From NCBI RefSeq assembly GCF_000003815.2, contig NC_049982.1:19256918-19320917 (forward strand): a stretch of 64,000 nucleotides of DNA, read 5' to 3'. The stretch is from Branchiostoma floridae. Its lineage: Eukaryota > Chordata > Leptocardii > Amphioxiformes > Branchiostomatidae. A program made the position numbers and the translations under genes. Shown one piece after another: positions 18,617-46,421 of this stretch; positions within the stretch are counted from its first letter, which is position 1, and every line of letters begins with the position of its first letter. A model generated the notes under the pieces. The model saw only the letters and a list, made by a program, of their open reading frames with translations. It ran no database searches and had not been told where the DNA came from.

Positions 18617-18622
18617 TATAAA
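18617..18622 (+). promoter_or_regulatory. TATA box of dermatopontin-like gene 2
   Basis: TATAAA sits 47 bp before the preferred ATG at 18669. An in-frame ATG at 18612 lies upstream of this box and would not be in the mRNA, which is why the later ATG is chosen. Confidence 0.7.
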
Positions 18623-18668
18623 GCTAGGAAAGGTCCTGAAGAGATTTACTTTAGATTTTGCTCTTGAC

Positions 18669-20133
18669 ATGGCGTCTCTTCTCGTCCGCGCTATCCTGAC
18701 CATCGCCGTGGTGGGATTGTTGTTCGGGCAGGACGCCGCCTTTTGGCTCAGGCGAGGTTCTCGTCGCCCCCGTCCCCGTCCCCAGCCCCGCTGCCCGGAC
18801 CCCACCGCCGTCCTGCCGGGCGCACAGACCACCTGGGACGACACCTTCACGTTCATGTGCCCGGATTTCCAGGTCATCAGACGTATCCGGAGCGCTTACT
18901 GCAACACGGCTAGAGACAGGGTGTGGCGGTTCGACTGCGAGTCCATCCCCGGCGTGTCCGTGTTCCATGAGCTGTTCTGGTCCGGCTGGGTGAATAACTA
19001 TGGTGGCATCATGAACTACCAGTGTCCGTTTAACGCCATCATCACGGGGTTTAAGAGCCAGCACAACGATGGCAGGGAGGACCGCAGGTGGAATGTGAGT
19101 TTCTGACAGTCTGACGGTTTCTTCTTTTCTTAGATTTTAATAAATCGTAAAATATAATGATTTTTTTCTTTAGAGCATCTGCAATCTGATGTAAAATTGA
19201 TTGCGTTGTAAATTTCAAAACATCCTGAATATTTTTTTAAACAAAATTCTTTTCGGCTTTGTAGTAAACCAATGGCCTGTTGAGTAAGTTAGTCGAATTT
19301 TCCGAAGCTCGATGTTTCTGACTTAGGGAGACTTAAGAGATGCTGCTACTGTGGGCCAGTAGTTCAGTGCCTAGAAGTGGTTTTGCACTGAGCAAACTCC
19401 TTTAAGAAAATAGGCCGCTTTGCAACAGTGGCACTGACCAATGCCATACTTTTCGAGCAAATCGCTGTTAACACTGAAAGGGGAAGTTGAAAACCGCACA
19501 TGTTATCGAGGGCATTTTCACTTATCAGTTTTTGATAGAGGTAATTAAATAAGTGATACTTACTATGCCATTCTCCCCTATCAAAGGTCCGGTGCTCCAA
19601 GGTCTACGATATGGTCACGTTTAACAACGTCCTGTCCAACGTCACCAACGAACTTGGCCTGCCGGGCGACTACAACGTTTCTGATGGCTTCTACCTGAGG
19701 GGCATGCACAGTTACCATGACAACGACTACGGGTAAATAAACAAATTTCATCACGTGCACGTTACATACATCTCAGTTGTTAGGCTTATAAACACCGTAA
19801 AAGAAATAGAGGTAACGTTAAGTTACAGACGATGTGCAGAAAGTTAACCGAAGTAATCATTGGCTTTAATGTCCAAAATATTTCACTTATAGACTTTTGA
19901 ATGTAGCGGACACATTAACTTTTTGGCCTAGATGTGGACAGTATAACTCAAACAGTTTAGAATTTTTTTTTCTGTTGAAAATCTACGAAATAAAACTCGT
20001 GCTTTGCAAACTGCCATACTACATGATTCGACCTGTGATATTGATGTACCCTAATGTACGGTAACAGTTGTTGTTCCCCTCCGATAGGGACCGTCGCTAC
20101 CGTTATGACACCTGTCTGATCAGCCTGCCTTAG
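18669..20133 (+). CDS. Dermatopontin-family secreted protein 2
   Basis: Three exons (18669-19094, 19587-19732, 20088-20133) give 205 aa, with the same phases (0, then 2) and exon 2 and 3 lengths (146 and 46 nt) as the gene at 16347. It has a signal peptide (MASLLVRAILTIAVVGLLFG), a basic Arg/Pro linker (RRGSRRPRPRPQPR), then the dermatopontin-type domain with RRIRSAYCNT, CPFNAIITGF and LRGMHSYHD. The exact exon match shows a tandem gene duplication with divergence of the linker. An AATAAA near 20214 and another near 20231 are likely poly(A) signals. Role as for gene 1: extracellular matrix or humoral lectin, not resolved. Confidence 0.88.
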
Positions 20134-20504
20134 TCAACTTTGCTGATACTTCACCTGACAGTCTTCACAAGAAAAGCAGATGTGATAGTTTGTGTCAATG
20201 ATCTTACACTGAAAATAAATTTGGCGTCATAAATAAAGTACTGGGTGAATGTCCTCAATATTTTGTGTGTGTCCTCCACTAAACATAGCTTTTTATCTGT
20301 CGAATTATAACGTTACATTGATTCCACGAACTTATCTTTTTAGCAGAAAAACCAATGGCTTCAAAATGTAGTCCTTTCAGTCCGATTTGATTTAACAAGT
20401 ATTCCGCCAGGCGGGAGTCTGGTAGAGACTGGTAGAGACTAGCTAGGTCACATGGTGCCCCTAGGCGTGGTGATATATCCCAGAAGTCCCCGGGACAATC
20501 CAAG

Positions 20505-23500
20505 ATGGCTGCGCCCTGTAGAAGAAGCGCGTCTCTGTTTACATTTTCCGCACTTCGCTTTCATACCTGTCCCTCGCTGGTTCGCCCTTTCAAAACACTG
20601 CCTTCGATATCAGAACGACTCACAATCATTTCTAGTGTGACTAAAACAGAGATAGTGGGAAAACACCGGAAGGTTAGGCACAAAAGGGTGTCCGAAGGAA
20701 CCCCCTCCCACCGTCGGTGTTTCTCGTCTGCTATCCCCGACAGCGGCGGTGTCAACACCCGACCAAAGCCAAAGGTAAACGTGTTTCTGATGTTTCCTAG
20801 ATATTATCGGTTGTGCTGAAATAGCGACTGAGCATCACTGTTCGTAGGCGTGATACACAGTCTGAAAAGCTTGTTGTTGTTTGTTGAAACAAGGAGCTTG
20901 AAACAAGGATAAATAATGTTCCTTGTTTGAAAATGAAAGCATATAAAAATATGATACTAACTTTAATGGTGCACGGAAAGGGGGCGTGTATGTGTTAGAG
21001 CGGTCCTATTAAAATACAATGCAAATGCGTTGTATTGCAAAAGTAGGGGCAAGTTGATGAAAGCTAATTGGGGGGATAATAGCCACAAGGGAGGCTGCCT
21101 AAGAAACCACTGCTTGGAGAATAGGTCAAACTCTGACATTAACAGTTTACCATCTTACCATCTGTGTAGGGAATTGTGTACAGATCTACCTCAACAGATC
21201 CATTTGTAAATCTGGCTTTTGAAGACTGGTAAGTGGAACTCAGCCTTTTTCATTCAGTGAGTGAATGAGAGGTGATGAGTGTGTGAGTGAGTGAGTGAGA
21301 GAGTGAGAGAGTGAGTGAGTGAGTGGGTGGGTGAGTGAGTGAGTGAATGAGAGTAAATGGGTGGGTGTCAGGAAGTAAGTAAGTGTGAGTGAGTGAATGA
21401 AAGGGGATGAGTGAGTGAGTGAGTGAGTGAGTGGGTGAGTGAGTGAGTGAATGAGAGTAAATGGGTGGGTGTCAGGAAGTAAGTAAGTGTGAGTGAGTGA
21501 ATGAAAGGGGATGAGTGAGTGGGTGGAGTGAGTGAGTGAGTGAGTGAGTGAGTGAGTGAGTGAGTGAGTGAGTGAGTGAGTGGGTGAGTGAGTGAGTGAG
21601 TGAGTGAGTGAGTGAGTGAGTGAATGAGAGTAAATGGGTGGGTGTCAGGAAGTAAGTAAGTGTGAGTGAGTAAATGAAAGGGGATGAGGGATTGAGTGAG
21701 TGAGTGAGTGAGTGAGTGAGTGAGTGAGTGAGTGAGTGAGTGAGTGAGTGAGTGAGTGTAAGTAATTAGATTAACAGCATTTAACACATCTAGAATGATT
21801 TACTTGTAGATGGAAATCCAGCAAGTCTTTGCAAACTATAAATATAACAACAGTCCAACTACATTTCAGGTTATATGAGAACCAAGACTTCACAAACACA
21901 GATATTCTGCTACTCTGGAGAAATGAACCTACAGTAAGTACACTTCTGTCCAGGGAAGGCTAAGTAAGGAATCAAAAACATAGATAGCCATATCTCATAT
22001 TCATTTCATATCTTAATAAGCCATGTAGTCATTTTACTAATAATTCTACTGCAGTATTATCAATGGGAAATGAAGATTATAGAGTTAGACATAACTATTA
22101 TATTAACATGTTGACTGATGATAATACTTTCCAATGGTTTTGGGTAAAAGTTGTTCCCTGTGTGGTGATCCCCAGGTTGTGATTGGTCGCCATCAGAACC
22201 CGTGGTCTGAGTGTAAAGTGAAGAGACTGCAGGAGCTGGGGATCCACCTGGCCAGGAGGAGGAGTGGAGGGGGAACAGTCTACCATGTAAGGATGTCAGC
22301 TTATATGTTTTCAATTTTGAAATCATCTTTAATATGTGGTTCTTAAAGAAAGGAGGGTCCTATAATGCATAAAATTTTAATGCTGCCATGGACAAAGGAA
22401 AAAAAAATACCTCTTGTTAAGGAACAGCCATGTACTCTGATTTAAGCAAGAAAAATTCAAGACTTTAAGTTTCTTCCAGACAGCTGATTAAGATATTTTT
22501 CATCCCCAACAGGACTTGGGAAACCTGAATGTGACCTTCCTGACCTCCAGAGATACCTACAGAAGGAAGCAGAACCTACATGACCTGGTGACAGCACTAA
22601 AGGGGAGGTGGCCTAGTCTGGACCTGTCTGTCAACAAGAGGGATGACTTAGTACTCAATGATACATACAAGGTGCCACCTGTAGAAAATGATACACACAT
22701 TGTTAATGAATTTGTGATTGATTAGCTTATGATGGAAAGAGAAGAGACTTAGTTTCAGAAAGGAGTTAGAAGAAAATGCATTCCCTGAGATTAGTTTTTC
22801 AAACATCTGTGTCTAAAAGATTTTCGCTCTTTGCTGTGTAGCTGTCAGGAACTGCTGCAAAGCTGGGCCGTAAGACGGCCTACCATCACTGTACCTTACT
22901 GTGTGATGTCAATACACAGGCTCTGAAGGACGTCCTCGTGTCTGGATTTGTGAGTCATCCATCTATGTTGCTTTTCATTGCTTTTTCCAAACAACATTTA
23001 TGTAATGACAAGAATATTAGATTATCTTGTTTCTTCATATAGCATATGGCTTTCAGACCTCCTAAAATATAGCAAAGTAAAGTGACCACCAGACCAAGGT
23101 AACCACATTCTCAGTCCCTAGAAATTTCAACACAAGATTTAACTAAGGACAATCTGATTAATGTTACTGTGATAAGCATTGTTTGGCAACTCCATTTTAC
23201 CTTTTCATTGCCTGAAATGGTTACACAAGTTACCAGCGTGTGGTCACAATAATAATTGGGGGAAATTGTTTTTGCCAATTTGCATCTGTTTGTTTGCTGT
23301 GTCGTTTTTGCCATCTGCAATTGTTTACTCAATCGGAAGTAGGTAGAGTAATGTACAGTGTCATCACCGAGGGATAGTACTTTACAGTCTCAGATAAAGG
23401 ACATTTGAGAGGGACCCTTGGTCTGGTGGTAACCTGTCCAACGAGTTCACTTGTCTATAGTGACCAGTGGCACTGACCACTCTTGCTCAGTTCCTTTAGT

Positions 23501-25267
23501 GGTCGCCTTAGGCTAGTTTGACTACTAGTATATTATATAACACAGGTAATTTGTTGTCTATGATTCAGGATGGCTTGGAGACCACAGCCACTGCAAGTAT
23601 ACGCTCAGAGGTCATAAACCTAAAAGACGTGGACACTTCCATAGACACTAAGGTTTTAGGGGACACCATAGCAGAATATTTCATGACAAATCATCAAGGG
23701 CAGATGGAACAGGTGGGCTACAATTTCTTTGATCTGTTATTTTTACTTGCTTTTTTTTTAGAATCTTTTATGAAACAGTTTGGCTCAAAGTACACATGTA
23801 CCTTTGAATTAATTAATTTGAAGTAAAGCTTTAATAGTCAACATAACCAAATTAAGCATCAGTTCAAATGGTTTGAAAATAGAAAAAGGTATCATAATGT
23901 ACCAGCTGTACTGATATAAAATGTCCTTCTTGCCGAGATGGTGTTGAAGAAAAATATCATTTTCTATAACATTTTGTATCATGTACAACTGTCAAGCGAT
24001 AAAGTTTGTTCATTTATTCATCTCCAATCAACACAAAAGATTGCATGTCCATTTTTCCACAGGTATGTGATGTGGACCCCACCAGTGAGGCCTTATACCC
24101 AGGTGTTGGCAAAATTGCAGAAGAGCTGAAGGTAGGGTGATGTGGTGTGGAATGGGTTTAGCTAATCTCTTCCTTCAAAGCTATAGCCTAAAGTCTTAAC
24201 TGCTAAATGCTGATAATATTGTAAATATTGGTCAATTGGATCAGTCATGAACATTGTGATTCACACAAGATATTGTATAATGGACTGGAACTACATGTAT
24301 AACTTGCTCAGCTAATGAACAACTCCAGAATAAAGAACTTGGGGAGCATACTAAAGATGGGGTTTGTGTGAGGTAGAAGTGTTTTATATTAAAGTTTGCC
24401 AAGCATGGAAGTAATGTATCAATCTTTCTATTTCTGTTCCAGTCTTGGGAGTGGGTTTATGGGAAAACACCTCCTTTCAACATCTGTTTGAGAAAACCTG
24501 TCAATGGATTAGCTGTGGTAAGCTGCATGTGCACACTTTCCATTACATATATGTGTATATTTGACATTAACCTATATTGAATTTTGTCATATAAAGCAAG
24601 CCACTTACACATGTTGTTTCTCTTATTGATTTTATGTTACTCTCAGAAATGTAATAATTAATAACACATTTCCTTTATTGTTTTACCCCAGCCCCTAGGT
24701 GTGTACATGAAGGTAAAAAAGGGAGTCATAGTAGACTCTTACATGGAGTGTCCCTTACTGTGGGTGTCAGAGGGAGTCATCCAGGATATAGGGTATTCCA
24801 TGAGAGGTAGATTATGTTTTACATTTATCTGAAGGGTTCCACAAGGCAGCACTGGGGACCTGTACTGCTCACTATCATGGGGAATGTTATTTTACATTCA
24901 TGTTTCATTGTAGCACCCTTGCAAAGATTTGAAGGGAATGGTGGTTGTAATGTTGGATCCTAGATTTTCTTAGCTGTAAGTATTTGTGATTGGTAATATC
25001 TAAAACCCATGACTGCATGACATCTTCTTATAAAAATTTGCAATTGAAAATTGGTTGAAAGGTCCTTACATATAAATAAACAGTGCATTTAGTGAGTTCT
25101 GTCATCAACTACATGTATTGTATATTGCCCATACAGGAAGAAGATTCCGTGCAGTGGACGTTCAGGCAGGGCTGGAGAAGTCTTTACAATCTTACAGGAG
25201 AATGTCAGATGACGAGCGACAGTTTGCTGAGAGACTCGGTCAATTTATTGTTGACAAACTTGTATAA
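20505..25267 (+). CDS. LIPT1: Lipoyltransferase 1, mitochondrial
   Basis: Eleven exons join in frame to 434 aa: 20505-20774, 21170-21228, 21870-21933, 22176-22286, 22513-22671, 22842-22949, 23569-23712, 24063-24131, 24443-24517, 24692-24806, 25137-25267. The enzyme transfers lipoyl groups to E2 and H subunits of mitochondrial dehydrogenases and the glycine cleavage system. Visible family motifs are [21 protein letters not shown] (about 156-168), [19 protein letters not shown] with the putative lipoyl-AMP-binding Lys at about 228, and [11 protein letters not shown]. Exon 1 encodes an Arg/Ser/Thr-rich leader suited to mitochondrial import. The protein is longer than human LIPT1 (373 aa), mostly at the N-terminus. 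Vertebrate LIPT1 has its coding region in essentially one exon, whereas this gene is highly split. A second copy is at 48199. Confidence 0.92.
21255..21758. repeat. GTGA microsatellite with higher-order units
   Basis: The array of GTGA/GAGT tetramers lies in LIPT1 intron 2. It is interrupted at least three times by a longer unit that includes GAGAGTAAATGGGTGGGTG, TCAGGAAGTAAGTAAGTG and AATGAAAGGGGATGAG, so it is a tetramer array inside a longer repeating unit. The apparent Thr-His-Ser-Leu reading frame on the other strand is an artefact of the repeat. Confidence 0.95.
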
Positions 25268-26341
25268 CGATGAAAAATATCTGTGCTCAATTTTTGTAAA
25301 CTTGTAGATGATGGACTGTGACATGCTGAAAAATTAAAGGCAAGAAATTCAACACAATTTGGGAATGAATGGTGCCTTAATTCATGTGAATCTGTATGTT
25401 TCCTCTGGTGCCTAAGCTTGTTGCTGGCTTGGATTCCAGCCGCAATATAGCTCCCGAGTCTCTTCTCTCCTCTTCACAATTACGAAGAGGAGAGAAGAGA
25501 CTCGGGAGCTATATTATGGCTGGATACAAGGCTACCTGTTGCTATGTGGAGAAAGCATTTTTGAAACAAATCTTAATTCATTTTAAGGAAATAGCATTTG
25601 TTGCTATGATGCAATCAACTTCATGCACAGTGACTGAACAACATGAGGCTATGACCTACGTGGGCTGTTAGTTGAGCACGTAAAACTGCCCATAAAACAA
25701 AGTCAATCAGCCAACCCTCTAAATTATTTGGTACTGTATCTCTCAAATTATCTTCATGTGGTGACGTCAGCTAGTAAGTGCGTACATCAGCAGTCCTGAT
25801 CTGGATTGCACACTGTCTTTACAGTTACATTGTACTTATTCTGACTTACCCAGTTCCACCAATACAAAATACAGGTTCCTCCAGGCAATTCCAAATGACA
25901 AGATCTAGAGTGACCACTAACAATGGAACAACACAATCACTAGCACATTGTATTACAAGACAAGAAATGTTTCCGTGAACAGTTCATATGAAATACAATA
26001 ATGGCTGCAGTCTCATCACCAATCACAGATAACTTAATAATCGCAAAGGATATATTGGCCAGCACAAGGCTACTTGCTTCAAATGCAGTATAATATATAT
26101 ATATGGATTAACCAAATTACTGAAATATCGTGTACAGTGTACATTTTATGCTCAGCCTGGTATTAAACAATCAATACTTGATGACCATGATTAAACCATG
26201 AGATGCACGTCAATTGGTGAGAAAAATGCAAGCAAACACGTCATCATACCGGTGTATACTAACACATCAGGTGAGCGGCACACACTGACTGAGCTGACTG
26301 TATCAAGATTCATCCAAAAAGCCACGTTTCAACACACAATC
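25268..26341. other. Intergenic, LIPT1 3' end to small gene
   Basis: An ATTAAA near 25334 may serve LIPT1. The main structure is the long hairpin at 25434-25525. The rest is AT-rich and shows no supported gene. Confidence 0.5.
25434..25525. repeat. Long near-perfect hairpin, 32-bp perfect core
   Basis: The left arm 25444-25475 (from AATATAGCTCCCGAG to CCTCTTC) is the exact reverse complement of 25484-25515, with an 8-nt loop ACAATTAC. Beyond a 2-nt mismatch the arms continue to pair (CCAGCC with GGCTGG), for about 40 paired bases in all. One strand of the stem is almost pure pyrimidine in its loop-proximal half. It is about 170-260 bp past the LIPT1 stop, so it may be in the 3' UTR or just beyond. 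The second copy at 52721-52812 keeps both arms exactly. Confidence 0.95.
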
Positions 26342-27436
26342 ATGGCAGAGGTGGGTTCAACACAAAGTTTTTGACATTTGTTCATCAATAAGAATGTTGT
26401 TTTGCAAATTTCTTGAACAAGCAATCTCAAAACACTGGCTTTAACAAGCCAATAAGGACTTAAGTGGAAATGGGGAGGACAAAAAGGAGCTAAGATATAA
26501 CGTTATAAAGTGTTTCTTGTTTGATACTTAGATGTAGCAGTCTGCATTGTGTGGAAAAGTAGATTGTTCAAAAAAGGTACATTCGGTTGTGCTGTTCAAA
26601 AAAGCAAACTTATAGATACTGGAATCCTTCCATGGGCCTGTTTTTAACGACAGGCTGCAGAAACATCACAGGAAATACAGGTAGTGCCAGAAGAGCCATC
26701 TGCAGAAAAGCCAACAGACAATCCACAGGAAACATCCCAGGAGACGCAGCAGCAGCCAAAGGCCTCAGGAGGAGCCAGTGGTGGACTATTTGACCTGATA
26801 AAGATGCTCAAAGGCTCGGAGGGCAAGTCCAAGACCAAAGTGAGTACTAATGATAATGATTGCACAAAAAACAACCTTGACCTCAACGGGGTCTCAGCAT
26901 ATTTTCCTGTTGTCTATACCAAGAAATTGATGAATCTATTATACACAATTTATTTTTGAGAAGAAAGCAGCATGTCAACCAGAGAATGGCATGTATTCCA
27001 TTATCATAGTTTTCTACAGATGGAAAAATATGGTATGTTCTGAACCCTTAGGAAGCAAACGGAGAACCTGACAAGTACTCAAAGAAGATGCTTGAAAAGA
27101 GTCGGGCAAAGAAGAAGAAGCAAGAGAAAGTAGGTGCCTTTTTAGAATCATTTATCTATTGGGATTTTTCAGATCATTCTGTCCATATCTTCATTTTCAA
27201 AAAACTATATTTTTGCTTTGTTTTGAAGCAGTCGTTCCTAAAAATATTCTTCAAACTTTATGAACAGCTGAACACATAGATATCAGATGCTTCTTACATA
27301 TGACTGTTGTTTCTATTATTTGTTGGAATGTGAAGACAGAATTTTACTAAATATATGTTTGTTGTGGGTTCAGGCAGCTGCAGAGGCTGCAGCAGGAAAG
27401 ATTGACCATGGAGGTTGGGAGAGCATCTTGCGATGA
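26342..27436 (+). CDS. Small charged protein, 111 aa, unrecognised
   Basis: Four exons are proposed: 26342-26350 (MAE only), 26654-26839, 27052-27129 and 27374-27436 (TGA), all phase 0 with GT-AG junctions. The protein has an acidic Gln/Glu/Pro-rich N-terminus (to about residue 40), a Gly/Ser hinge, a short hydrophobic patch LFDLIKMLKG, a strongly basic helix (KKMLEKSRAKKKKQEK) and a C-terminus AAGKIDHGGWESILR. There is no signal peptide or membrane segment. The basic helix could bind nucleic acid or a coiled-coil partner. I do not recognise the family. All four exons stay in frame in the second copy at 53631. The 9-nt first exon is the weakest part of the model; the other three are well supported by phase and duplication. 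Confidence 0.65.
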
Positions 27437-29642
27437 GGCCCAGCTGGGCAGGACTGTTAGGTTTTTCGCCTGTCGCCATGAAGTCTTACAATAATATACG
27501 TACGATTCCCTCTTACGAGTCATTTTGGTAGACCTGCTCAAATCAACATTGTGTTAACTTTATGATTTGCACCAGCATATCTGGTTTCTGGTAGGCTGAA
27601 GGATTGCAAAATTGCACATAAATTCAAGATACATTGTATGTTGTAAGACACATATCATATCAGAGAGACAATATTATATGCTAGAACCAGTTTGATTCAA
27701 CATTTCCGCAGTGTTCATATCTCTGTAACAAAATTATTTTCTGTCCTCTCCGTTACAGCTACAAAATATTTTCAATCGAGTACTGTATGCATGGCCAGCA
27801 TTGTTCTCATTTTATCTTAGCTTTTATGACTGGAGCTGTGTAATGTGGCTGGCACACATGCATCGTAAAAAGAACACCAATGAATGAAACTAGTATATTG
27901 TTTTGTACATTGCATTAGTTTTTAAAGGACATCTTGTATGATAATGAACATTGAGTCTAACATAGCCTACTAAATTTCTTTTGTTGAGGGCTACTCATTC
28001 TTCCACACAGTTGTTCTGTGGCCTTAAATATACCTGCATGGGAGAATGAGGGCTTACTGTACATGTGATATTGTCAGGCACTGATGTCACATCCGTTCTT
28101 TAATTTTGCATGTTAACATATGATATACTAGTAGTAAAAATGTATCGCATTAATGGATCTTGAGTCATTTGATAGACAGAAATGAAAAGGCTCAGGTGTG
28201 AACTGCCCCGTTACCATACAATTGAGAGCTCAGTGCTGTCTCTACAGTGCTGGGAGTGTAACGTTAACCTGCCTGTCCAGTTCATTAGGGTAGGCAGGGG
28301 GATTTTTATGGGGTTGGATTAGGTAAACTCAAAAGTCCGACTGAAAAGAGAGGCTGACCATGTTAAGGTGTAAACTGTAAAGGATGAATTGGAAACCAAA
28401 ATTGTATTCAAGATGTGAAACAATGCAATTTGAAACGCCCCTCACACACATACATGTATCATATGGTCCTATAAAAAAACCTTGTAAGGCAAAATCAAAG
28501 AGAAGCTAAGCTTAAGCTTTTATTCCCAACTGTAAATTTCCACAATCCTCAAATTCTTAATGTATGGGCCATATATAGCTTGATTGACATATTTTACGAC
28601 AAGCCATGATATGAGTCAAGTTACATGTACATGTAAAAGCAGGTTTGGGCTACATTAAGGCACTTGTTGATTAAGTCCCCTCTTTAAGTCCTAGACATCC
28701 TTAATTCTAACACAATTGCTTCATCCCCACATTTTGCAACACAGCTGTATAAGAGTTATTTAACAAATTGGATATTCTTGGAGATGTGAACTTGGAGGTG
28801 CTCAAGGTCTGATAATGAGAGAGATGAGTGGAAAGCTTTGAATGTGATTTTGCTTTCAACTGTTATGCAAAATAAAAGAAATAAAAGGAAAATTGAGAAA
28901 GAATTTGCCTCTTCAGTGTGACAGACAGAAAATATGACAAGCTGTGCTGTTTTTTAAAACATTTTGTCCATGCTTTCAGCTGAGCTATCAGCATATTATT
29001 AAAGTTGGTCCAATAGAGATCTTTCTTGTGGTCTAATATTGACAACATTGCCATTTTGAGGTAATACATTGTATATCCAAAATGTATATCCTTTATGTGT
29101 TAAAAGAAATATCTGACAAATTTGTAGAATTTTATTGCTAAATAAATGTAATATTCTGATCTGATATTTCAACAAAATTTACAGAAAATTCACTGTAACT
29201 ATCATCATAAGGTTCAACTTTCAGAGCATTGCCAAACTCAATAACAAAAACAGAATAGAAAGCAGCATAATAAACTACCTCATAGATGACTTATTCTTGT
29301 ACACAAGAATCACTTTAAAGAAAGTATTCTTGATATCAAGGACATTATACAATGTCTATGATATTATATAATGTACTATCTGTATCTGTATCTATATGGC
29401 CGGTATAACCGTTGTTCGGCGTAACACACCAGCTTTGTAGATACGCAGCTGGTTATATTACACTGAACGATTAAGTCTTGCATATGCAGAACATGAAATT
29501 TTAATAATCTGTTCATCTTAACAAAAGAAGGCATTGATCAAGAAAGCAGAGCAGCTTGGTCATGTTTCTGTTGTAGTTCACCCAGTTGTGTTTGACTGTT
29601 GTAGTGGAAATGTTGTTTTGTGGCCAGGACAGTCTTTGGTCC
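27437..29642. other. Convergent 3' region
   Basis: The small gene (+) and CNDP2-like gene (-) converge here. TTTATT at 29131-29136 reads AATAAA on the minus strand, a plausible CNDP2 poly(A) signal with a 3' UTR of about 0.5 kb. No further gene is seen. Confidence 0.45.
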
Positions 29643-32600
29643 TCACTCCAGCTGGGCCACCTCGTGGAGGTAGGCAGCCAGCAGTTTGGTCTGTAGGAGG
29701 AAGTGTCGACATGTTAGTGCTTGTCCAAACAGCAAATCAAGTCTATGATCATAAAGAAAAGAAGCGAGAATCATTGTCCGTTTGAAATCATACAGGTAAA
29801 CATGATGTGGGGCTTTTTGTTTCAAAGGCAAACCTACATTACCAACTTAAGTAAAAATTAACAATTTCTGGTAAAGAACTGATCTCAGTTTTGGGGCAGA
29901 GGTTGAAATCTTGGTTTAAAAATCAATTCAAAAAAGCTATGATTACAACAAAGTAATACTTTCTTGAAATAGCAAACAAACAGATTTGTAAAAATCTACA
30001 ACATGTTTTTTTTTTAAGATTAAAAAACTGATGTACGTTAGTTGTACTATAACCTCAATAAGCAATAAGCAGCTCTGTATTATGATCTATTTGCCATGTA
30101 ACCTTTTAGACCTACCCCCATAATATAGTTTTTCTTGTTGAACTTTTCATTCTGGGAATGAGCCCCATCATCGCATGCACCCATTGGGAGAAGCATCACG
30201 TTTTTCCCCGTCACGTCCGCAAATGTCAACGTCACTGGAATACTACATCCATCCCGAGTCAAATCTGGCTCCATGCCCCAAACTAATAGATGAAATAGAG
30301 AACACACATATCAATAAAGGCATGACTACGTACCCCTTGGATGTAGTTCTTCCGATCAAATTTCTCGTTTTGGGAGTGTGCGCCGTCGTCACAGGCACCC
30401 ATGGGAAGAAGCATAACGTTCTTGCCAGTGACCTCTTGGAAGGTCAAGGTCACAGGGATACTCCCACCCTCGCGAGTCAAGTCAGGCTCACAGTTCCAAA
30501 CTGTTAACAGGGTGGATCAGAAGGTATTTCAAAATCTTCATTGAAATTGTGACCTGCATCTATGTACATTTCAAATCAGCATATTCTGAGAGCATTTGAG
30601 GACAAAGATTTCACTATATTGACATATCTGCATATTCTGAAATGTACCAACCAAAGTAAAAAATGTTATACAATGTATCACAAGATCAGGCCAAAAGTTT
30701 GTAACTAGAATTACTTGATCGTCTGTGGCACAGATGACCCACCTGCTGAAAAATACAGATTTAGGAATGTCCTCTAATTATAATGAGACCTCTATAATAT
30801 TTTGTTAAAATGTATGACGTGGTATGTAACTCACCAGTCTTGGTTGCCTTGCGCCCAGCGATGTAGTGAGGATGGTTGAAGTCACTCACCCACGGCTTAC
30901 CCCCATGCCCCATGGTGACACTGGAACCAAGACAAAACAGAAACTGAAAACTGCAACAGTTTTTATAGGAAGACAAGTTCATCCAGCAACAAATGTTATT
31001 AAAAAAATGGTTTTAATTGAAAAAAAAGAACAAACCTGACTGGGAAAAAATCCATACATTGTTGTATCAATATTCCTTACTTATTTCCAAACTGGAGCTT
31101 GGCCAGGCATTATAAAAGAGGGAACAAAAATGATATAAAAGATGACAAAACACACAAAACTTAGATGTTAAGAAAATTAGCTATATGACCATAGTTATGT
31201 GTATATTTCTTGAAAAAAAAACAAAATTTTTTTTCCTTTCGGTACTTTTTGTTCCTGCAAACAGTTGGCCAGGCCCCAATTTGGACATGTGACTGCAGCC
31301 GTACCTGATCTGGTTAGGGCTGCCGCTGTCCTTGTGCAGTTTGTTGAGGTAGTCCACTACACACTTCTCCACCTGGTCAGGCAGCATGTCAGGCACCAGG
31401 CGCAGGGAGAACTTCCCAATCACCTTCCGTGGGATCACAGTCTTGGCACCAGCACCGTCAAACGAACCCTCGATACCTGCAGTCAGGGGAAACAGAAATC
31501 CATCAACAATGTCAATGATTGGCTTGTGTAAACTCTACTCAAAACTTTTGTTCATCTTTAAGCATCAGATCCCTTTATTACAACATAATGATATATGTCA
31601 CCATGTACCATCTGCTCCACACTGCAGTAACTATTTACAGTAGTGTTGGCCGTATGGTCCATATACACAGAGTAACTCAATCAGAAAAGATCCAAATGTC
31701 ATTTTCTGTTTTTGTAAACATTTGTTATGCTTTCATTTACAATATAAGGAATTTGTATTCAATCTAACTGGACTGTACCATGCAGGGAGAGGGTGGGGAA
31801 CCTCCAGCGGTGCATGAGGATCTTTGCCTTGGTGTCGTGCAGGAGACGTTTGTGTCCCAGGTCTGCCCTGTACGTCTCCTGTTCAGAACATACAATGGAC
31901 AATCAAGGTCAAAGTACAGTCGTCAAAGCAAAATCAGATAGTACCATACATGAGAATAAGAATCATTCCTGCATGTTTTGCTTATAGTACATGTAGGCAT
32001 CAAAAGGTTTCTTAAGTTTAATATTGAGGTTTCATGTCAATGTCAAGCCAAGATATTTCAGCCTAGTGTCTTGGAAACTAAGAGGATAGAAAAAAAATGA
32101 TGCTAAATTTAGGGCCCATGAAACTAACATAAATGGGGATTCCAAAATACTGTCATCCATGTCTCCTGACACAAGCAATCAGGAAAGAAAGAGAAAAAAT
32201 GACAAAGGAAGAGTTCACAGAATATTATGTGAATAGATACAAGAGCCTGACCAAGTCAAAGTCGATGGGGTCATATGACGCCAACTCCTCGTCTGTTACT
32301 GGGGCGACCATCTCGTTGATACCTGGCACCTTGATGTTTCCCTTTGTGTCCACCAGACTGGACATCAGACCTATCAGGTCAGTCATGGCCTCATGGCTGG
32401 ACATGGGGGGAGAATAATTTCTTAGTAATGACATATCTGTGATAACATACAGTGGAATTGAAAATTGCATGGGTGTACGCAGAGGGCCTTAAAATGTCTG
32501 GACAAATCCTGCACTAACTGGCTTTTTTCCATTAAAAAGAATGACTTTGATGACAGCGATGACAGAGGAAGTGTTCTTTGTTGTTTGAAGGAATTTCACA

Positions 32601-35600
32601 GAGCACATGGGTGTCAGGTAGTGGCATGTCCAATGCTATGATGTTTTTTGAAACAGATAATACTTCACGAGCTTTGTATACTAGACAATGCTGTTACACT
32701 TACACAGATCCACCAAACACACCAGAGTGCAGGTCCTTAGAAGCACACTGCACCTCCAGGAAGAAGTAACAGATCCCCCTGTAGGAAAGAAAATGTTAAG
32801 AAAGAATGAAACAAAGGCTTTAATCTCCATACACCAATGGCCTATAAATTAGAAAAAAATTGATAAGCTACAAGTACTAGTCAAAAGCCAAACTTAAAAC
32901 ATGTCTATGAGGCTAATAATGTTTAAGCCACAGTAAAACACATTCCAGTTACATGTACATGACTGTACATGTACATTGTGTATTGGCTAGGTTTGTTGAG
33001 ATGCTCAATACCAGTTGTGACAATATAAAGCAGAGTATTTGAAGCATCAGTCTGACATTGCATTTGACATCGCACTCTGGAGCTGTGTTGACCCACCTGA
33101 GTCCATATGTGATGCAGGGCTTGTTCTTCCCCAGCCAGTAGTTGTCAGAGATGCACACATAGTCGACATCCTGGGGAAGATTAACATTGTAATCAATAAA
33201 GATGCAAGAGGAAGCAGTCACATTGAGGAAATATATATGCAGTCATTGAAATTGAAACCTGGAATACAATGCAAAACTAACACATGAGAAACTTCTTAAG
33301 CACATACATATCTGAAGGGAATAGAGTAACATTTTTTATGGATAGCCTTTGCCTGCTTGTCCGTACCTTCAGGAAGGTGTCTTTCTTAGAGATCAGAAGA
33401 TCATCCAGCCCCTCCGACCCTGACTCCTCCATCCCCTCGAAGATGAACTGATAATGGAAAGACATTCATACATCATTTGTGAATCAGTGTAAATGCAGAA
33501 ACTTTGGCGGTGGTTTGATGTTCGTGTTTTTTGCGGTAGCCGCTTCACCAGGAACTTAAAACCACCGCGAACATTTTTCTATGGCAATAAGGGACTACAG
33601 TAGCCCGGGTACCATCCGGAAAGTAGTTCGCTCCGACGTTCATTATATACTATATACAGTCGCTTCTAGCTCTGACATTCATTATACACTATATACAGTC
33701 GCTTCTCTGTGTTTCCGTCTGGGAACGCGGACCATCTTAACGTCTGGAATCGTCCAAATTTTGGAAGCAGGGGCTGATTGGTCCCCACATGAGCGAATTA
33801 TGGAATGGGTTCAAGTGATATTCGAACCGGTGTTCCAACACCGGAAAAGCCCCACGTCATCTAGCTCATGTGGGCGCCGGCCTGTTGACATAGAACGAGT
33901 GCTCTAGAACCCATTCCTTGATTCGTTCATCAACTGGCGTCACCACCAAACGCAAGTCTCCAGACGGATAGCAGAAGCGAACATAGGAGCAAACTACTAT
34001 CCGGATGGTACCCAGGCTAGGACTACAGTGCATGGTGCTACCATGAACTTAAAACCACCGCGAAAAGTCCTTTTACCCGCTACCGCAAAATCAAATCCCC
34101 GCGAACTTAAATGCATTTACAGTATATCATCAACACCTGGATCTGTCATGTTCAGATTTCAAAGTTTTTAAAAGAACTGTTTAAGTTCTGACTGCTGTCC
34201 GCTACACGTACAAACAGATACAACAAAATCAGCACTTCACACCTTGAGATTGACTGGTATTTCCTGTCCGATCTTCTGGTAAGCCTCGATACAGTTCAAC
34301 CAGCCGAGTACGGGACCCTGGAAGGGACATTTAAGGTACATTTTGTTAACGATATATATGTATTACACATTCTGCATAAAAAGGCAATGTAAAGGGCTAA
34401 TTTTCGATTCTAGGAGAGAGAGAGAAATGGTTTGTTGACATTATTGACTTTAAAAACTCTAGCAGCACAAGAGGCTGAATTGTCGTTTTTTTTAGTCAGC
34501 ATTTCAACCACTAACTTAGCTATATAAAGGGATAAGCTTTTAGCTGTTATTTATTTAACCCGAATGTATTTAGATAACTTTTGAATGTAAAATTACAAAG
34601 AAGCATTTCCTATTTTCAAGATACAAGGTGTACATGATAAACGAGGAGATTATTTCATGAGTATTACATATTTTCACACAGTACCTTGTCATCTGTGGAG
34701 CCCCTGCCGTACATTTTGCCATCGACCTCTGTCAGAACAAATGGTTCAGTATCCCAGCCATCCTCCTGGATAAAATAGTGGGAGATAAACCAGATTTGTT
34801 AGATATCTTGAGCCAGCATGCACTTATTTCAACAAAAATAAATGTATTTAACAATCCAATTTCTTTTTTTATTGACCTTGCACGTGATATTCATCACTTT
34901 ATTTCAGCATTACCAGAGAGAACTGTCAGAACAAGTCCATATTATACAAATGTAGCTATATAGGATATAACTGGAAAAAGCAGTTGTACACGATAAGGAC
35001 ACTAATTTACTTGTTATTGTCACAATGTAAAAGTAGTTAAGATGTAAGTCAATATAAGAAATAATCATAATAATGTAAGAATTTATCATATTAAGAATTG
35101 TTATTGACTTGATCTAATGATGAGAAATTATGATGCTGAGACTTTCACAAAACATGGTGGACAGGTGCAACATGTAGATCTGAGTTAGTGTATAAAGACA
35201 AAAAGTCACCTTATGGGCAGGCTGCACATCCAGATGTCCATACACAGCAACAGTCTTCTTCTTGGGGTCCTTACCGAGGTATCCCAGAATGCAAGGCGGC
35301 AGGGGGATCTCAGACCCATCCGGATGTTTCTGCATCCCGAGCTCACAGAGCTCTACTGTAGCACCCAGGGCTTCAAGTTCCTGCAAAGATTGTGGGATCA
35401 TATGTTATAGAGGTTACTTACTATACATGGCACAATGCATCCGGAATAGAAAAAAAAATATGTGATGTGGCAAGGTTTTAGAGCCATAGAACAGTGGGCT
35501 ATGCAGAAACAGCAAGCAGTACCAAAATCATATCCAGTTGCTTGAGTAATTTTGGAATAAGCATAAATTATGAATGGATAATATCTAAACATTTTACAGG

Positions 35601-37894
35601 GCTATGGTGCAAAAATTATCCACACCTTGGCTGTGTGCTTGACCATCCTGATGACCTCTCCCCTGACCTCCGGCCAGGCCGACACACTCTTGATGGCCAC
35701 CACATCTGACAGCCGCTTCACATACTCCTCCTGGTGGTCATCAATGTAACTGCAGGGAAGAGGAATAACTCATTTTACACAGTAAATACTGTAAATTACA
35801 GTACTGTTAATGTTGTGGCTATTGAATGTCATACATTTTGCAATAGAACTACCGTACAGAAACTTGCAATAAGACTTATAAGTTATATATTGCCATGATT
35901 ATAATTATTTCTTTATCATTCCTCGAAAGTGAAAGTTGTATCGATCAGCTTGGAATATGTCCAAGCCATGACATCATTCTTTTAGGCATCAATGGACCAG
36001 AACATATTGTATGCACTGAAACTGAAACATGTTTTCTCACTGCTTATCATTTGTTCAGATGAGCACCATATCATCAAGTGCTTTCAAATGAGCAAATGTT
36101 TACTGCTAAAGAAAATTTTTTGTCCAGCTAGCTTTAAACAGCCATCCCTGAGTATGTGTACAGTGGCCAAAATTGCATTTGTATGAGTAGTATAGATATT
36201 GATCATAATATAACAAAACACAGAAAATGTGAAAAAAAAATTGTTTTTATCTGAGAATGATAATTTTAAAAAATTATGATATGTTTACTCTGTGGTAGGT
36301 GGTGGATTTACTGTAGGGTGGTGTAAAAATGAAGGGAGAGGAAAATGTTTGTATTTTAAGAAACTTGAAAAGTTTAACATGTACTACTTCTTTCACCATA
36401 CTGACTCTTGTCCATAAGACCATATCAGCCTGTGTGTTTAGTCTTTTGTGTTTTACTGCACCAGTATAACAAACATCAGAGGTGCACAACAACATGATAA
36501 GACCAGTACCCAGTACACCATTGTGTTTGTTCTAGGTGAGGAAGTACACACCTGTGCAAACAGATACAAGTGTCTGCTTTTAACATATAATGTTAGAGTG
36601 TAAGTTGCCAACCTAAGCCAAGGTGTATTTTTTTATTAGATTTAGTCTAGATCCCTCCCCAAGTTCAAAAGTTATGGAGTGGAGAGATCAATTGATGGCA
36701 TTTACCTCAAGTGAGGGTATGAATTGCTAAATGAAAAGAAATAGGTGAAGTACATTTGTACATGTATTTACTACTTTGTCACCTCCTGCACAAAGACTGC
36801 TATGGCTTTGTGTGATGTAACAAAGACCACTAAACTCTAGTCACTAGACAAAAGGGTTGCTTGGTCATGTTGAAGCTGAGTCCAATCTAACTGAATGAAG
36901 CCCAGAGCTTTCTGAAGTCAGGACAAGAACCCTTCTGTGTTGGAGAAATATTGATGGGTTATATAGAGGGTCCGGACTCCCATTTTACCTGTCCATAGCT
37001 TACATCATTGGCACGCTGATATTGGCTGTTTGCCATGTCTTACATACACCAAATCAACAATGTGCAAGTGGTGAGGGGCCCAGACATCACCAAACCTGTC
37101 AAAGTAACCTACTGCACATCTGTACCTCACTCCTCTCATTCTTTTTGTTCCATCTTTTCCCCCTTAGTTAGAGATGTTTACCTGGCACAGCTGCCAGAAA
37201 TTCCTTAGCTGGGGAGGTGCCTTATGTATGTAGTGTTGCTAAAGACGGAAGATGGTTACATATTAACCACTGCACAACCTACAACATCTGTTGTATGCTG
37301 AAGTGGGTCCTGCTGGCTTACGTGTCATGTACTTTTGTTTCCCATTTGTCTTTAATCACCTGAATTCTCTGCGAAAGTTCCAAGTATGATGGTGGAGGAA
37401 CGGGGTGAATTTTATGGTAGGTTGTCTGACACCCTGACAAACGTACAAATTACATTTAATTTTTAAGATCAAAGAGCGCAAACAACAGTGAGAACTTAAG
37501 AGTAAACGAAAAGAAAAACAAAATTCCATCGAGGTTGGGTGGCGGAAAACAAATATTTGAGAAAGCATAGCAAAATTCTATTCTATTATTTTTCTCTAGC
37601 AGCCGTGACAGTTTCGGTGACATCATTTGCTTTCCTTTCACTTTCAGTACGAAGTACACTTTGTTTTTACCGAGCTCGCTGAGCGCCCCCCTCCCACATC
37701 ACCAGCTCCCGTGATATTCGCAGCTCTGATACGAGGCGAGCACACATTTTTCACTAACATTTCTCTTCCTACATACAAGTCATCTTCTCGTACACAACCA
37801 CACCGGCCTGATACCTTCAAGCAGTAAAGAAAGAGGTGAAAACAAGCCCGCAGACTGACCTGAAGATCTTCTGCAGGAACTCTGGGGCCGCCAT
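29643..37894 (-). CDS. CNDP2: CNDP2-like cytosolic metallodipeptidase (M20)
   Basis: Fourteen coding positions on the minus strand give 477 aa (human CNDP2 has 475): 37860-37894, 35626-35749, 35210-35380, 34685-34765, 34243-34317, 33367-33447, 33097-33170, 32704-32778, 32252-32396, 31779-31878, 31305-31476, 30835-30920, then either 30334-30500 or 30116-30282, then 29643-29690. All phases match. M20 metal and catalytic motifs are present: [32 protein letters not shown] and GAHSQNE. The enzyme hydrolyses dipeptides such as Cys-Gly with two metal ions in the cytosol. There is no signal peptide, which separates it from secreted CNDP1. A nested transposon sits in the intron between 33447 and 34243. 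Confidence 0.95.
30116..30282 (-). other. CNDP2: Alternative CNDP2 exon 13b
   Basis: The 167-nt exon enters in phase 1 and leaves in phase 0, exactly like exon 13a 51 bp away. Its acceptor is ATTAG and its donor GTAGGT. The encoded segment runs from [14 protein letters not shown] to KNYIMG and keeps the active-site GAHSQNE. Using both 13a and 13b would shift the frame, so they must be alternatives. Confidence 0.9.
30334..30500 (-). other. CNDP2: Alternative CNDP2 exon 13a
   Basis: The 167-nt exon has acceptor AACAG and donor GTACGT. It encodes a segment from [14 protein letters not shown] to KNYIQG. It differs from 13b at ten positions by my reading, among them NC/GM, E/D, G/C, QE/AD and DR/NK, and is identical through [23 protein letters not shown]. 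Confidence 0.9.
33488..34121. mobile_element. Outer MITE-like element interrupted by a second one
   Basis: TGTAAATGC at 33488 and GCATTTACA at 34113-34121 are inverted ends. Inside them, GGCGGTGGTTTGAT, TTGCGGTAGC and AAAACCACCGCGAA recur in inverted orientation around the inner element. It lies in a CNDP2 intron. Confidence 0.6.
33601..34019. mobile_element. Inner MITE, 9-bp TSD, Mutator-like
   Basis: The 419-bp element begins TAGCCCGGGTACCATCCGG and ends with a near-perfect reverse complement. The inverted repeats extend about 40 bp with a few mismatches. GGACTACAG at 33592-33600 and again at 34020-34028 is a 9-bp target-site duplication. Long TIRs with a 9-bp TSD are typical of Mutator-like MITEs; the superfamily is inferred. 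There is no transposase. A tandem duplication of about 42 bp (two TACAGTCGCTTCT units) lies at 33640-33702. Confidence 0.85.
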
Positions 37895-39175
37895 GTTGGA
37901 TCAAAGGATGTCACGAGGTGTGAGGCCGGGTCATCACAACAATATTTCTACATCGCTCCGTCAAACAAATTCATTCACCTCAAATCTCTCATCAGACTTT
38001 CCGAAACAGAATGATGAATTTTTCTTTTGTTAATTTATCTTTTTTATCTAATATTTCATTAGGTTCTGGTTCCTATCGTATTGATAGTTGAATGTGAATT
38101 TCGTGACCGTGATTTGAAATGGTACAGTCCATTGCCACGCCCCTCCGAAAACTGAGGCACGTGGGTCGCCGTGACCCTGGGCACCATCTAGTGTAGCTTT
38201 GATCGTAGATGATTCACCGACCACTATTCTCTTTCGGCCACTTGCATGAACAAAAAGAATTTGGATTTGCTGAATCTAGCTAACCGTTGTAGAATAACTG
38301 GACTGGTCAGGTCCAGGATACCGAAATCAGCACCACGGTCAGGCCTGTCGTATTTTTCACAAGGCATAGATATGATTTTAAATAATCCAACACTACAAAT
38401 ATAGAGGAAACATTTTGTAGCACTACATATATATTATGGAGCAAAATGTGCTCATTTAATGGCCATCGCGAATCAAACAGATATAGATAACAAACAACTA
38501 ATTTATGTATTGCAAATGACAAAGTAAGCCTTAAATATGCCAATTACATTCTAATTTGCATAACCATCAAATCATATCAAGCATCCCTTAAGCTATCTGC
38601 ATACCAAAAATCATGATGATACGTTTATCCCTTCTTGAATTATTCTCCTTCACATCTGAAACTAAACCGGATCCTGCAGTTCCAAAAAAGCCACTAGAGG
38701 ACCCAAACATACCCCACTTACTCTCTGCCCCAAGAGATATCAACCATTCAAAAATCACGACTGTAGCATTTCCAGAACTCGAGATATTAAACCCGGAAGT
38801 TCCTCTTAAGTACCATAGCAAGCCGCTAGAGAGCCCAAAATCTAATCAAGGTCAGCCAGACCTACCCACGTACCAAATTTAGATCCATCCAGGCATTCTG
38901 GAGTTACGCTGGTCAACTACACACAAACACACAAACACCACCGAAAATAAAACCTTCTAGCGAAGGTAACAATAATGAGATGTAGATCTATTTTTTACTC
39001 CAGTCAGAAATAACCTATCATGGCTGCACGGTAGACTGTGTAGACTCTGGTCGTGTGTAAACACTCACATGTTTTATTTGTTTATCAACCGTGCGGAACG
39101 TAGGTCGATCAAGTATGCTGACTGTGCCTTGGCATTTATCCAGCTGAACTACATTGTGTACATGAACGAAACAAA
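37895..39175. other. Divergent intergenic region, CNDP2 / GH1
   Basis: It contains the CNDP2 promoter side (GC-richer, no clear TATA) and the upstream region of the glycosidase. About 38546-38990 looks like a dispersed repeat: two related sub-blocks around AAGCC(A/G)CTAGAG and a 3' end rich in ACACAAACAC. The frame at 38613-38882 in it is not credible as a gene. Confidence 0.4.
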
Positions 39176-42100
39176 ATGCTGTTCTTTTTTACTTTTTTAA
39201 TCGCGTTGACCATGGTACACTGTGCTCATTACGACTATGGCGAGTACGACCGAACCAGGGACGATTTCAGACCAGGTACGTTTCCTGACGGCTTCATCTG
39301 GAGCACTGCCACGGCGTCCTACCAGATCGAGGGCGCCTGGAACGTGGACGGCAAAGGTGAGTCCATCTGGGACAGGTTCTCCCACACACCTGGTAAGGTA
39401 GACCGCGGGGACACTGGAGACGTGGCCTGTGACAGCCACAACAAGTACCGAGAAGACGTGCAGCTCATGAAGGCCATGGGTCTGAAGTACTACCGCTTCT
39501 CTCTGTCATGGCCGCGGATCTTTCCCGACGGTACTGTAGCGGGCGGTGTCAATCAAGCTGGAGTCGACTACTACAATAACGTCATAGACGAACTGCTCGC
39601 AAACGGCATCACCCCGATGGTGACACTTTACCACTGGGACCTCCCGCAGGCCCTACAGGACAGGTACGGAGGGTGGGTGAACGAGGAGATTGTCGAACAT
39701 TATGATAACTACGCCACCTTCGCGTTCCAGACCTTTGGCGACAGAGTCAAATATTGGTTAACTTTTAACGAACCGATGGTACTCTGCTCCTTGGGTTACA
39801 CGTCAGGCGAACACGCCCCCGGGATCCACGATCCAACATCAGTCTCAGGCTTGAGCTGTGGACATACACTTCTGAAGGTATTGTGTGATAATTGAAAATA
39901 CCTTTCTTATCTTCTAAGTTATAGTAGTGCAGGCCGGGCGTTAACAACTTTAACCAAATTCATTATTGTTCACTGACTTAATTTGAACCCTACCTGACCA
40001 TGGTATAGGCCAAGGCCGATCGTATAGCCCCACCTAGCGGCGGCCAGAAGAATCGTCGGCAAAGTTGTGTACTGTTCAGTACTAGTGCGTTTTGTATCTA
40101 AGAGCATATTTTCAATGTTTTACATTGTGGTAGACATGTCATTCGTACGATGCAGTTAGATAGTCTTCCATTCTCATTATACGTCATTGATATTTTACCG
40201 TAGGCCCATGCCAGAGCGTGGCACACATACAACACAACCTTCCGACAACTTCAGGGAGGAAAAGTCGGGATCGCTCTGAGTCTTTTGTGGGCGGAGCCTC
40301 GTGACCCTGACCTTCCAGCCGACGTCTCGGCAACAGACCGTGCAATGCAGATGATTAATGGCTGGTTTGCACAGCCCATCTTCGGAGACGGAGATTACCC
40401 TAACGTCATCAAAGAAACAGTGAGTAGAACGTCTGACTGCCATGATCTTGTTTGATTTTCTTTGGCAGGGTGAATCAGACAAGTGAGCTCCATAATCTAA
40501 CGTTGTATGTTATACGTAAAAAAGCAGTTACTGAAGCAACGTTAACTGGATATGATTTTGGAGACGGTCAGACGTTTCAGACAACCAATCGGTATCTTTC
40601 GTCAGTGACTAGAGAGATCTTGTTTGAGAGAGTAAAGGGGGGCTACGTATGGAACTTCTGCACTTGGGTCCTTGGGATCTCGTCTAACCGGAAAAAATCC
40701 GAAATCATATCCACTTGCTTGAGTAACTGCGTTTTGGCGTATCTTGTTACCTGGATGTCTAACCTTCATCGACGTGTTTGTATGTTAATTTTACAGGTAC
40801 AGAAACTGAAGTCGCAGTTGACAGAGGTTCCTGAATTCACCGACGAGGACAAATCTCTCATCCATGGGTCGGCGGATTTCTTGGGTGTGAACCATTATTC
40901 ATCAAGAATCACTTCTGACAAACCCATCGACATACAGGTAGGCCGGAGCAGGTATACATCTTGTTGCCAAAATTGAACTCATAAAAGATGTTTTCTGTGA
41001 AGCCGAAGTAAGGAAAAGGAACAATAGTACTTTTAACCGTATGAGAAAGATGGAAAGTGCCATTCAAAACAGAAATTGTCATTTATATGATAACATTTTG
41101 GGTTTTCTTTGACTACCGCGCGCGGTCATATACTGTTTGTACCTGTTTTACTTAGACACAGAGCGTCTTTGAGTCGTTTCAAATGACCACCGCCCCGGAG
41201 TGGCCACGTGGTCAGTCTGACTGGTTGTTTGCAGTACCATGGGGACTCCGCAGACTTCTCAAATATATCAAGGTACATTAATGTACGTACTGGGTATCCA
41301 GCACGTGTTTAGAGCGCTAGGAGACGCATAGATCCAAAAATACAAAGTTATAATACTTTACGCAGAGGGATTTTTTTTCGTAAACCATCGCGTTTAAGTC
41401 ATTTTCGATCTGCATGAACTTTTATGAAGTGGTCGCACATCTGATGGGAAGTCACTGTGCCCCTGCCATACATACAAACAAACCAGATTTTCAATAATAT
41501 TTATTTGCCATATGTTTCTGTTCTTTAATTTCTCCTGGCTGGAAGGAGCACTATGGAGATCCCGATGTGTACATCACGGAGAACGGTTGGTCTGACGGTG
41601 ACGTACAGCCGCCCGTCATGGAGGACACGGGCCGCATCTGTTACTACATGACGTATATCGATGAGGTACTAAAAGGTAAGCGGCATGGTTGGAAAGAAAA
41701 TAACCTAAAAATACGATAAGTCTTGTAAGCACGGTTAAGTGCTTTATATATCGACATCGAATCTCATCTGGCGATTTTCCCATTTTACTTCATCAGTTTA
41801 TGGCACAGATTCTGGCACAATTTTATTTTGGCTATTCATTATGATAGCTATTCGTTACCAAAATATGCATGAGACGAACTCTTATCTCCATAATTGTGTC
41901 GTCCTTGTTAGCAACCCTCTTGAAATTTTACTGTTATATCTCATGTCTGTTTTTGCCTTGTGGCAAAAATTACGCAGTATTAGGTAAATAGCTGATGTTG
42001 TGCTGATTTGAAGATAAAAATCAACTGCAATATCTTTCTGTGTTGTTCATATTTCTCTGTGTGTAGCGATTGAGGAGGACCAAGTCAAGGTTCGAGCCTA

Positions 42101-45126: not shown

Positions 45127-45332
45127 GTAGGTTTGTTTATGTTGGACATCGGTACAGCAACAACAACAACAACATGTGGGGAATGTGTACATGATTGATC
45201 ATCCAACGTTTTAGGAATTTAAATTATGTTATTTCTCAGCATATGGTAACTAGTTAGCATACCAGATGAATAGTTTTAAGATTAAGTATTCATAAGGTAT
45301 ATTCATGTAATTTCAATTTCTATGGAGAAAAT

Positions 45333-45432
45333 NNNNNNNNNNNNNNNNNNNNNNNNNNNNNNNNNNNNNNNNNNNNNNNNNNNNNNNNNNNNNNNNNNNN
45401 NNNNNNNNNNNNNNNNNNNNNNNNNNNNNNNN
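45333..45432. other. Assembly gap, exactly 100 N
   Basis: One hundred N is the usual placeholder for unknown size. It separates the truncated MOGS gene from the second copy of the duplicated block. Confidence 0.99.
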
Positions 45433-46415: not shown

Positions 46416-46421
46416 TATAAA
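46416..46421 (+). promoter_or_regulatory. TATA box, dermatopontin-2 copy
   Basis: Same TATAAA as at 18617, 47 bp before the ATG at 46468. Confidence 0.7.

Follow-up and report, generated by a model that had tools for sequence, protein, structure and literature searches.

A tandem pair of probably mutually exclusive exons encodes the metal-site segment of a CNDP2-type dipeptidase in Branchiostoma floridae

The gene for a CNDP2-type dipeptidase in Branchiostoma floridae contains two adjacent versions of one internal exon, 13a and 13b. Judged from the genomic sequence, these are likely to be tandemly duplicated, mutually exclusive exons, both of them functional. Tandem mutually exclusive exons are already well known, including in enzymes such as ACOX1, KHK and PKM (PMC9741552). 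The CNDP2 case places the switch in the substrate pocket, and it is the pocket-loop change that makes the case worth testing.

A CNDP2-type gene with one exon in two versions

The window, i.e., the whole stretch of DNA analysed (64,000 nucleotides), corresponds to C4:19256918-19320917. Relatives were sought in the assembly (513,431,437 bases, 431 contigs), and match counts are lower bounds. On the minus strand, a gene for CNDP2 (CN2, family M20) was built from eleven exons running from 35749 to 30835, followed by 13a/13b and exon 14. In the spliced model all 14 acceptors are AG and all 13 donors are GT. Candidates for the first coding exon were scored within 35750-39121; the putative exon chosen had the second-best donor score among the listed candidates, a fitting phase and likeness to the CN2 N-terminus, its peptide (37894-37860) presumably resembling CN2 N-termini. 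Residues are numbered as in human CN2, anchored at His445, and those of CN1 are anchored at His452. The features of the gene are as follows.

37860-37894, minus strand: likely first coding exon (putative)
35626-35749, minus strand: exon 2 (A)
35210-35380, minus strand: exon 3 (B), with metal ligand His99
34685-34765, minus strand: exon 4 (C), with metal-bridging Asp132
34243-34317, minus strand: exon 5 (D)
33367-33447, minus strand: exon 6 (E), with Glu166 and Glu167
33097-33170, minus strand: exon 7 (F), with Asp195 and Tyr197
32704-32778, minus strand: exon 8 (G), with His228
32252-32396, minus strand: exon 9 (H)
31779-31878, minus strand: exon 10 (I)
31305-31476, minus strand: exon 11 (J), with Thr330 and Arg343
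30835-30920, minus strand: exon 12 (K), joinable to 13a or 13b
30334-30500, minus strand: exon 13a, residues 405-459 (PDB match to mouse CN2, E 3e-25)
30283-30333, minus strand: GT-AG intron between 13a and 13b, 51 nt
30116-30282, minus strand: exon 13b, the alternative version (PDB match to mouse CN2, E 5.6e-23)
29643-29690, minus strand: exon 14, last coding exon, with stop codon TGA at the 29643 end

The 13a isoform (465 residues without exon 1) matched the PDB chain of mouse CN2 over its whole length with E 1.8e-237, followed by human CN2 (1.5e-234), CN1 (4.8e-165) and yeast DUG1 (1.3e-146). The CN1 score is far below that of CN2, so the protein is not closest to CN1 overall. The 13b isoform matched the Pfam domains Peptidase_M20 and M20_dimer. 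Full-length similarity, with CN2 as the best match, places the predicted protein in the CNDP2/CN2 group of the M20 family. Adjoining the gene on the opposite (plus) strand, at 39122-39895 of the window, is an exon of a glycosyl hydrolase family 1 protein (Glyco_hydro_1, Pfam E 1e-93).

The initial annotation had described two 167-nt exons 51 bp apart, with entry phase 1 and exit phase 0, and we confirmed both on the minus strand; its exon numbers (12, 13a, 13b and 14) are correct once the putative exon 1 is counted. Each exon of the pair has its own splice sites, and the entry and exit phases are equal. The borders read aacag/TTTGG...AGGG/gtacgt for 13a and attag/TTTGG...GGGG/gtaggt for 13b. 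The last base of exon 12 opens a Val codon that either 13a or 13b completes, and both exons end on a codon boundary. Their 55-residue peptides found each other in a search within the window (E = 8e-30) and are identical at 46 of 55 positions; taken alone, the exon peptides fall below the Pfam cut-off (E 0.065 for 13a, no match for 13b). By adjacency, homology, equal length and phase, and possession of their own splice sites, 13a and 13b form a candidate tandem cluster of the mutually exclusive type.

Splicing of the exon pair

If both exons are included, 13b is read out of frame and a stop appears at its codon 8, 143 nt before the last exon junction; the claim that joint inclusion shifts the frame is therefore correct. 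Skipping both exons also shifts the frame, and the reading ends in another frame. A premature stop well upstream of the last junction is a substrate for nonsense-mediated decay, and given the 143-nt distance, the joint-inclusion transcript would be a classical example. The frameshift and early stop form a barrier to joint inclusion, to which a steric barrier is predicted to add.

The steric argument concerns the intron between the two exons. Its 51 nt compare with 196-795 nt for the other twelve introns between exon 2 and exon 14. Among the branch-point-like adenines, which are sequence candidates, the best with a usable 3' distance lie at 18 and 22 nt, counted from the donor. A third strong one sits just 8 nt before the acceptor; another, weaker, has distances of 37 nt to the donor and 13 nt to the acceptor. 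Some animals splice introns as short as about 43-50 nt, which leaves steric exclusion less than certain. Scored with a rough matrix, which was used for splice sites and branch points alike, the splice sites of 13a and 13b fall below the gene median, the donors being the 5th and 6th lowest of 13 and the acceptors the 3rd and 5th lowest of 14. A 501-nt stretch surrounding the pair, folded as RNA, had z = -1.95; 4 of 100 shuffled sequences did as well or better, and the result was given no weight.

A steric threshold of about 50 nt has been described, and the exclusivity of OGDH exons 4a/4b is enforced by branch points located 25-41 nt from the donor (PMC7969005). Of 377 human clusters whose exons are frame-incompatible, 83 (22%) were reported to have reads that join the two exons (PMC5740500). 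We propose that splicing would connect exon 12 with one of the two, 13a or 13b, and this one with exon 14; that joining of 13a to 13b would be hindered by an intron offering no branch point at a sufficient distance from the 13a donor; and that any transcript containing both exons would be removed by nonsense-mediated decay. Mutual exclusion is thus expected by two routes, frame and sterics, neither of them absolute. As the initial annotation anticipated, mutually exclusive splicing is well supported by the anatomy of the locus, i.e., by frame, phase, the 51-nt intron and apparent selection on both exons.

The two exons might instead be used together in some non-standard way, e.g., through a shifted donor that restores the frame. 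We consider this highly improbable. We found no evidence in its support, and the ends of the 51-nt intron are normal GT-AG; joining the exons at the given sites produces five stop codons, and the resulting protein would have two metal-site segments, unlike the PDB chains of CN2, CN1 and DUG1, which have one each.

A partial second copy of the locus

When the 13a peptide was searched against the assembly, at least four matches were obtained, corresponding to 13a and 13b in two copies. The second copy lies within the window, and both of its exons are where the initial annotation had placed them (57777-57611 and 57559-57393).

45333-45432, no strand: assembly gap, 100 N; the second-copy homology begins at 45433
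57611-57777, minus strand: second copy of 13a, 1 synonymous difference
57393-57559, minus strand: second copy of 13b, 2 synonymous differences

The region 17628-32671 is homologous to 45433-63068, with gaps and insertions, and aligned blocks of more than 600 bases are 82-99% identical. The homology, which covers a stretch of about 15 kb in the first copy, breaks off within the intron that separates exons 8 and 9, and the second copy was found for exons 9-14 only. In the available data the 17,578 bases that follow the window read N, which may reflect a gap or withheld sequence. Close to the gap at 45333, a plus-strand frame of 316 residues (44248-45198) has a glycosyl hydrolase 63 N-terminal domain (Pfam E 4e-34). 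Imperfect repeats at 21256-21774, self-matching at offsets of about 150-310 bp, have matches at 48878-49146.

In both copies, each exon of the pair is preceded by AG and followed by GT. Over the seven shared exons (885 bases), 13 bases distinguish the copies, amounting to 12 synonymous codon changes and one amino-acid change. Among the non-coding stretches aligned near the pair, differences amount to 4.0-6.8%, gaps left out, in two introns and in two further stretches, one lying upstream of exon 12 and the other downstream of the stop. The 51-nt intron is identical (0 of 51 differences), an outcome with a probability of about 0.05 if it changed as fast as the two introns next to it. This pattern, in which all three differences in the pair are synonymous and the short intron is unchanged, lends mild support to constraint. 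The intron between exons 9 and 10 is 373 nt long in the first copy; in the second it holds a 2.6-kb reverse-transcriptase frame (minus strand, 59609-62179, 856 residues; Pfam RVT_1 E 6e-33).

The second copy may be an unmerged (misplaced) haplotype or a recent partial duplication, and both fit equally well. Since it was found for exons 9-14 only, starts right at an assembly gap and is possibly a haplotype, it does not provide independent support for conservation, nor is it shown to be a second working gene. A large second copy beside runs of N is suspicious, and might suggest that the exon pair itself is an assembly or haplotype artefact. We find this barely credible: no N occurs between 13a and 13b, the same arrangement is seen in both copies, and within one copy the two exons are saturated at synonymous sites (see below), so they are not alleles.

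Age of the duplication and selection on both exons

Exons 13a and 13b differ at 50 of 167 bases, with 7, 5 and 38 differences at codon positions 1, 2 and 3. By the Nei-Gojobori method, 34.7 synonymous changes were counted over 34.0 synonymous sites (pS 1.02, saturated), and dN was 0.127. Saturation at synonymous sites together with the low dN indicates an old duplication after which the amino-acid sequence of both exons was retained; the substitution pattern shows strong amino-acid constraint on 13a and 13b since what appears to be an ancient event. Among 43 identical residues with degenerate codons, 31 use different codons in the two exons, versus 24.4 +/- 3.0 expected under randomised synonymous codons. 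With one-sided values of 0.02 by codons and 0.13 by bases, this excess is too weak to support any claim beyond saturation itself.

Six residues are common to 13a and 13b and absent from vertebrate CN2: Trp405, Val427, Ala439, Cys440, Phe451 and Lys454, of which Ala439 occurs in CN1 too. These common residues, the sole basis for dating, suggest that the exon was duplicated once this lineage and the vertebrates had parted. No branch was supported in a tree built from six rows of 55 residues.

An alternative is that 13a makes nearly all of the enzyme, whereas 13b, a spare that is seldom used, mainly lowers expression when included and has no enzyme function of its own. Several observations could be read this way. 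More vertebrate-CN2 residues are kept in 13a (414, 416, 425, 426 and 453) than in 13b (406 and 452), joint inclusion leads to a premature stop, and in the six-row tree, which has no supported fork, the branch lengths are 0.16 for 13b versus 0.032, the longer branch allowing for a minor role of 13b. Neither reading frame nor sequence would have to be maintained in a poison or spare exon, yet dN here is 0.127 against saturated synonymous change. The frame of 13b is unbroken and in phase, with Ser417 and His445 kept; its two copies differ by two synonymous changes and by no amino acid; and it keeps the common Gly406 that 13a lost. On these grounds a spare role for 13b seems improbable, and we favour two functional exons.

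Changes in the active site

Nine residues change from 13a to 13b: N406G, C407M, E414D, G416C, Q425A, E426D, D452N, R453K and Q458M. The pocket loop (413-417) reads REGGS in 13a and RDGCS in 13b, i.e., Glu414Asp and Gly416Cys, so that 13b gains Cys416 in this loop; it also loses Cys407. The changes had been described as clustering at the segment edges around an unchanged core. That description is inaccurate given the location of the most telling changes: two of the nine (E414D and G416C) fall inside the active-site loop, and Q425A and E426D are mid-segment. The accompanying proposal that substrate choice or dimer contacts are tuned is strengthened in its substrate-choice half by the two pocket-loop changes.

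The metal ligands His99, Asp132, Glu167, Asp195 and His445 and the catalytic Glu166, as listed for CN2 (PMC6271292), are all present in both isoforms. Tyr197, His228, Thr330, Arg343, His380, Ser417 and Ile418, which figure in ligand binding in docking and dynamics of CN2 (PMC12655758), also match CN2 in both. With the metal centre and Ser417 kept, both isoforms are predicted to be active.

In the CN2 docking study, Gly416 and Tyr197 form the bestatin pocket, and the Gly416 contact was lost from the bestatin complex in molecular dynamics (PMC12655758). Glu414 is called a hotspot for another inhibitor in the discussion of that paper, but the energy listed for it is a small penalty (PMC12655758). 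CN2 hydrolyses Cys-Gly, which returns cysteine to glutathione (PMC12655758).

The balance tips slightly towards the pocket-loop change in 13b shifting dipeptide preference or conferring an activity sensitive to thiol redox state. A related reading, compatible with mutually exclusive splicing, is that the isoforms differ in regulation (e.g., redox control via Cys416, loss of Cys407, dimer stability) and not in substrate choice. The gain of Cys416 and loss of Cys407 are in its favour, as is the report that CN1 activity is tuned through Cys102 (PMC6009930). Position 416 lies at the ligand in the CN2 docking and in models of CN1, which favours a direct effect on substrate, and we hold a purely regulatory difference to be possible but somewhat unlikely. 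If used as predicted, the pair would be a natural switch of exons in which two pocket-loop residues change and the metal centre is spared, a ready-made experiment on CN1/CN2 specificity.

Comparison with known exon pairs

The initial annotation knew of no such exon pair for CNDP2, and we likewise found no report of one among the papers searched. The main text of PMC9741552 has 0 occurrences of CNDP2, and a survey of human clusters (PMC5740500) does not mention "CNDP" in its main text.

OGDH, with exons 4a/4b, is likewise a metabolic enzyme with adjacent homologous exons; there, exclusion is enforced by branch points closer than about 50 nt to the donor of the intron that separates them (PMC7969005). 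The OGDH exons set calcium sensitivity, whereas the CNDP2 pair encodes the catalytic metal-site segment, and the OGDH branch points were mapped, whereas those of CNDP2 are predictions (the best at 18 and 22 nt). ACOX1, KHK and PKM, which belong to different families from CNDP2, are also enzymes with homologous exons at or beside a ligand site, 55 residues long in ACOX1 (PMC9741552). In this type, catalytic residues are kept and in most genes at most one or two ligand residues change (PMC9741552); CNDP2 is alike. The selectivity-filter exons of NALCN similarly swap specificity residues by exon choice (PMC3557258; PMC9741552), but NALCN is an ion channel and CNDP2 an enzyme.

Parallel with CN1 and relatives in the genome

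The corresponding loop of CN1 is Arg-Asp-Gly-Ser-Thr (RDGST), in which Asp421 and Ser423 stand where 13b has Asp414 and Cys416. Ser423 has been modelled at the peptide bond of carnosine (PMC11173852) and as bridging its amino and carboxyl groups (PMC6009930). The 13b loop is CN1-like in having Asp414 and, at the position of the CN1 Ser, a small side chain with a thiol (Cys416). In the vertebrate CNDP1/CNDP2 pair, CN2 (REGGS) and CN1 (RDGST) differ at the same two positions as 13a and 13b. Identity to CN1 is 30 of 55 residues for 13a and 30 of 55 for 13b, and 13b is identical to CN2 at 41 of 55. Overall, 13b is no closer to CN1 than 13a is; the parallel is confined to the two loop positions, and could be due to chance.

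Vertebrates have two genes, CNDP1 and CNDP2, whereas here there is one gene with two exons. A speculative reading, and on balance an unlikely one, is that a single CNDP2 gene achieves through its alternative exons what takes vertebrates two genes. The 13a isoform would be a CN2-like general dipeptidase, and the 13b isoform, with its CN1-like pocket loop, would prefer other dipeptides (e.g., Xaa-His, beta-alanyl) or favour the reverse reaction (in CN2, the synthesis of lactoyl-amino acids), the same two positions having changed independently. If this is true, one lineage altered these two pocket residues after duplicating a gene and the other after duplicating an exon, a possible parallel between the two kinds of duplication at shared sites.

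In the searches of the 513-Mb assembly, whose counts are lower bounds, a single full CN1/CN2-type gene was found and no CN1-like second gene was detected. The full protein had at least 25 matches. Nineteen were in the window, where exons 2-8 matched once and exons 9-12, 13a and 13b twice; exon 14 gave two matches by BLAST within the window. No relatives were found among viral contigs. Two distant bacterial loci on genome contigs (L001-L002) match query residues 2-164 only and were left out of further comparison. The remaining six matches (L029, L030 and L033-L036) were weak, are located on C14, C4 and C18, cover only residues between 77 and 196, and had no match in the exon-13 search. Their long frames resemble N-terminal parts of PM20D1-like M20 enzymes, which suggests a small expansion of that family in the genome.
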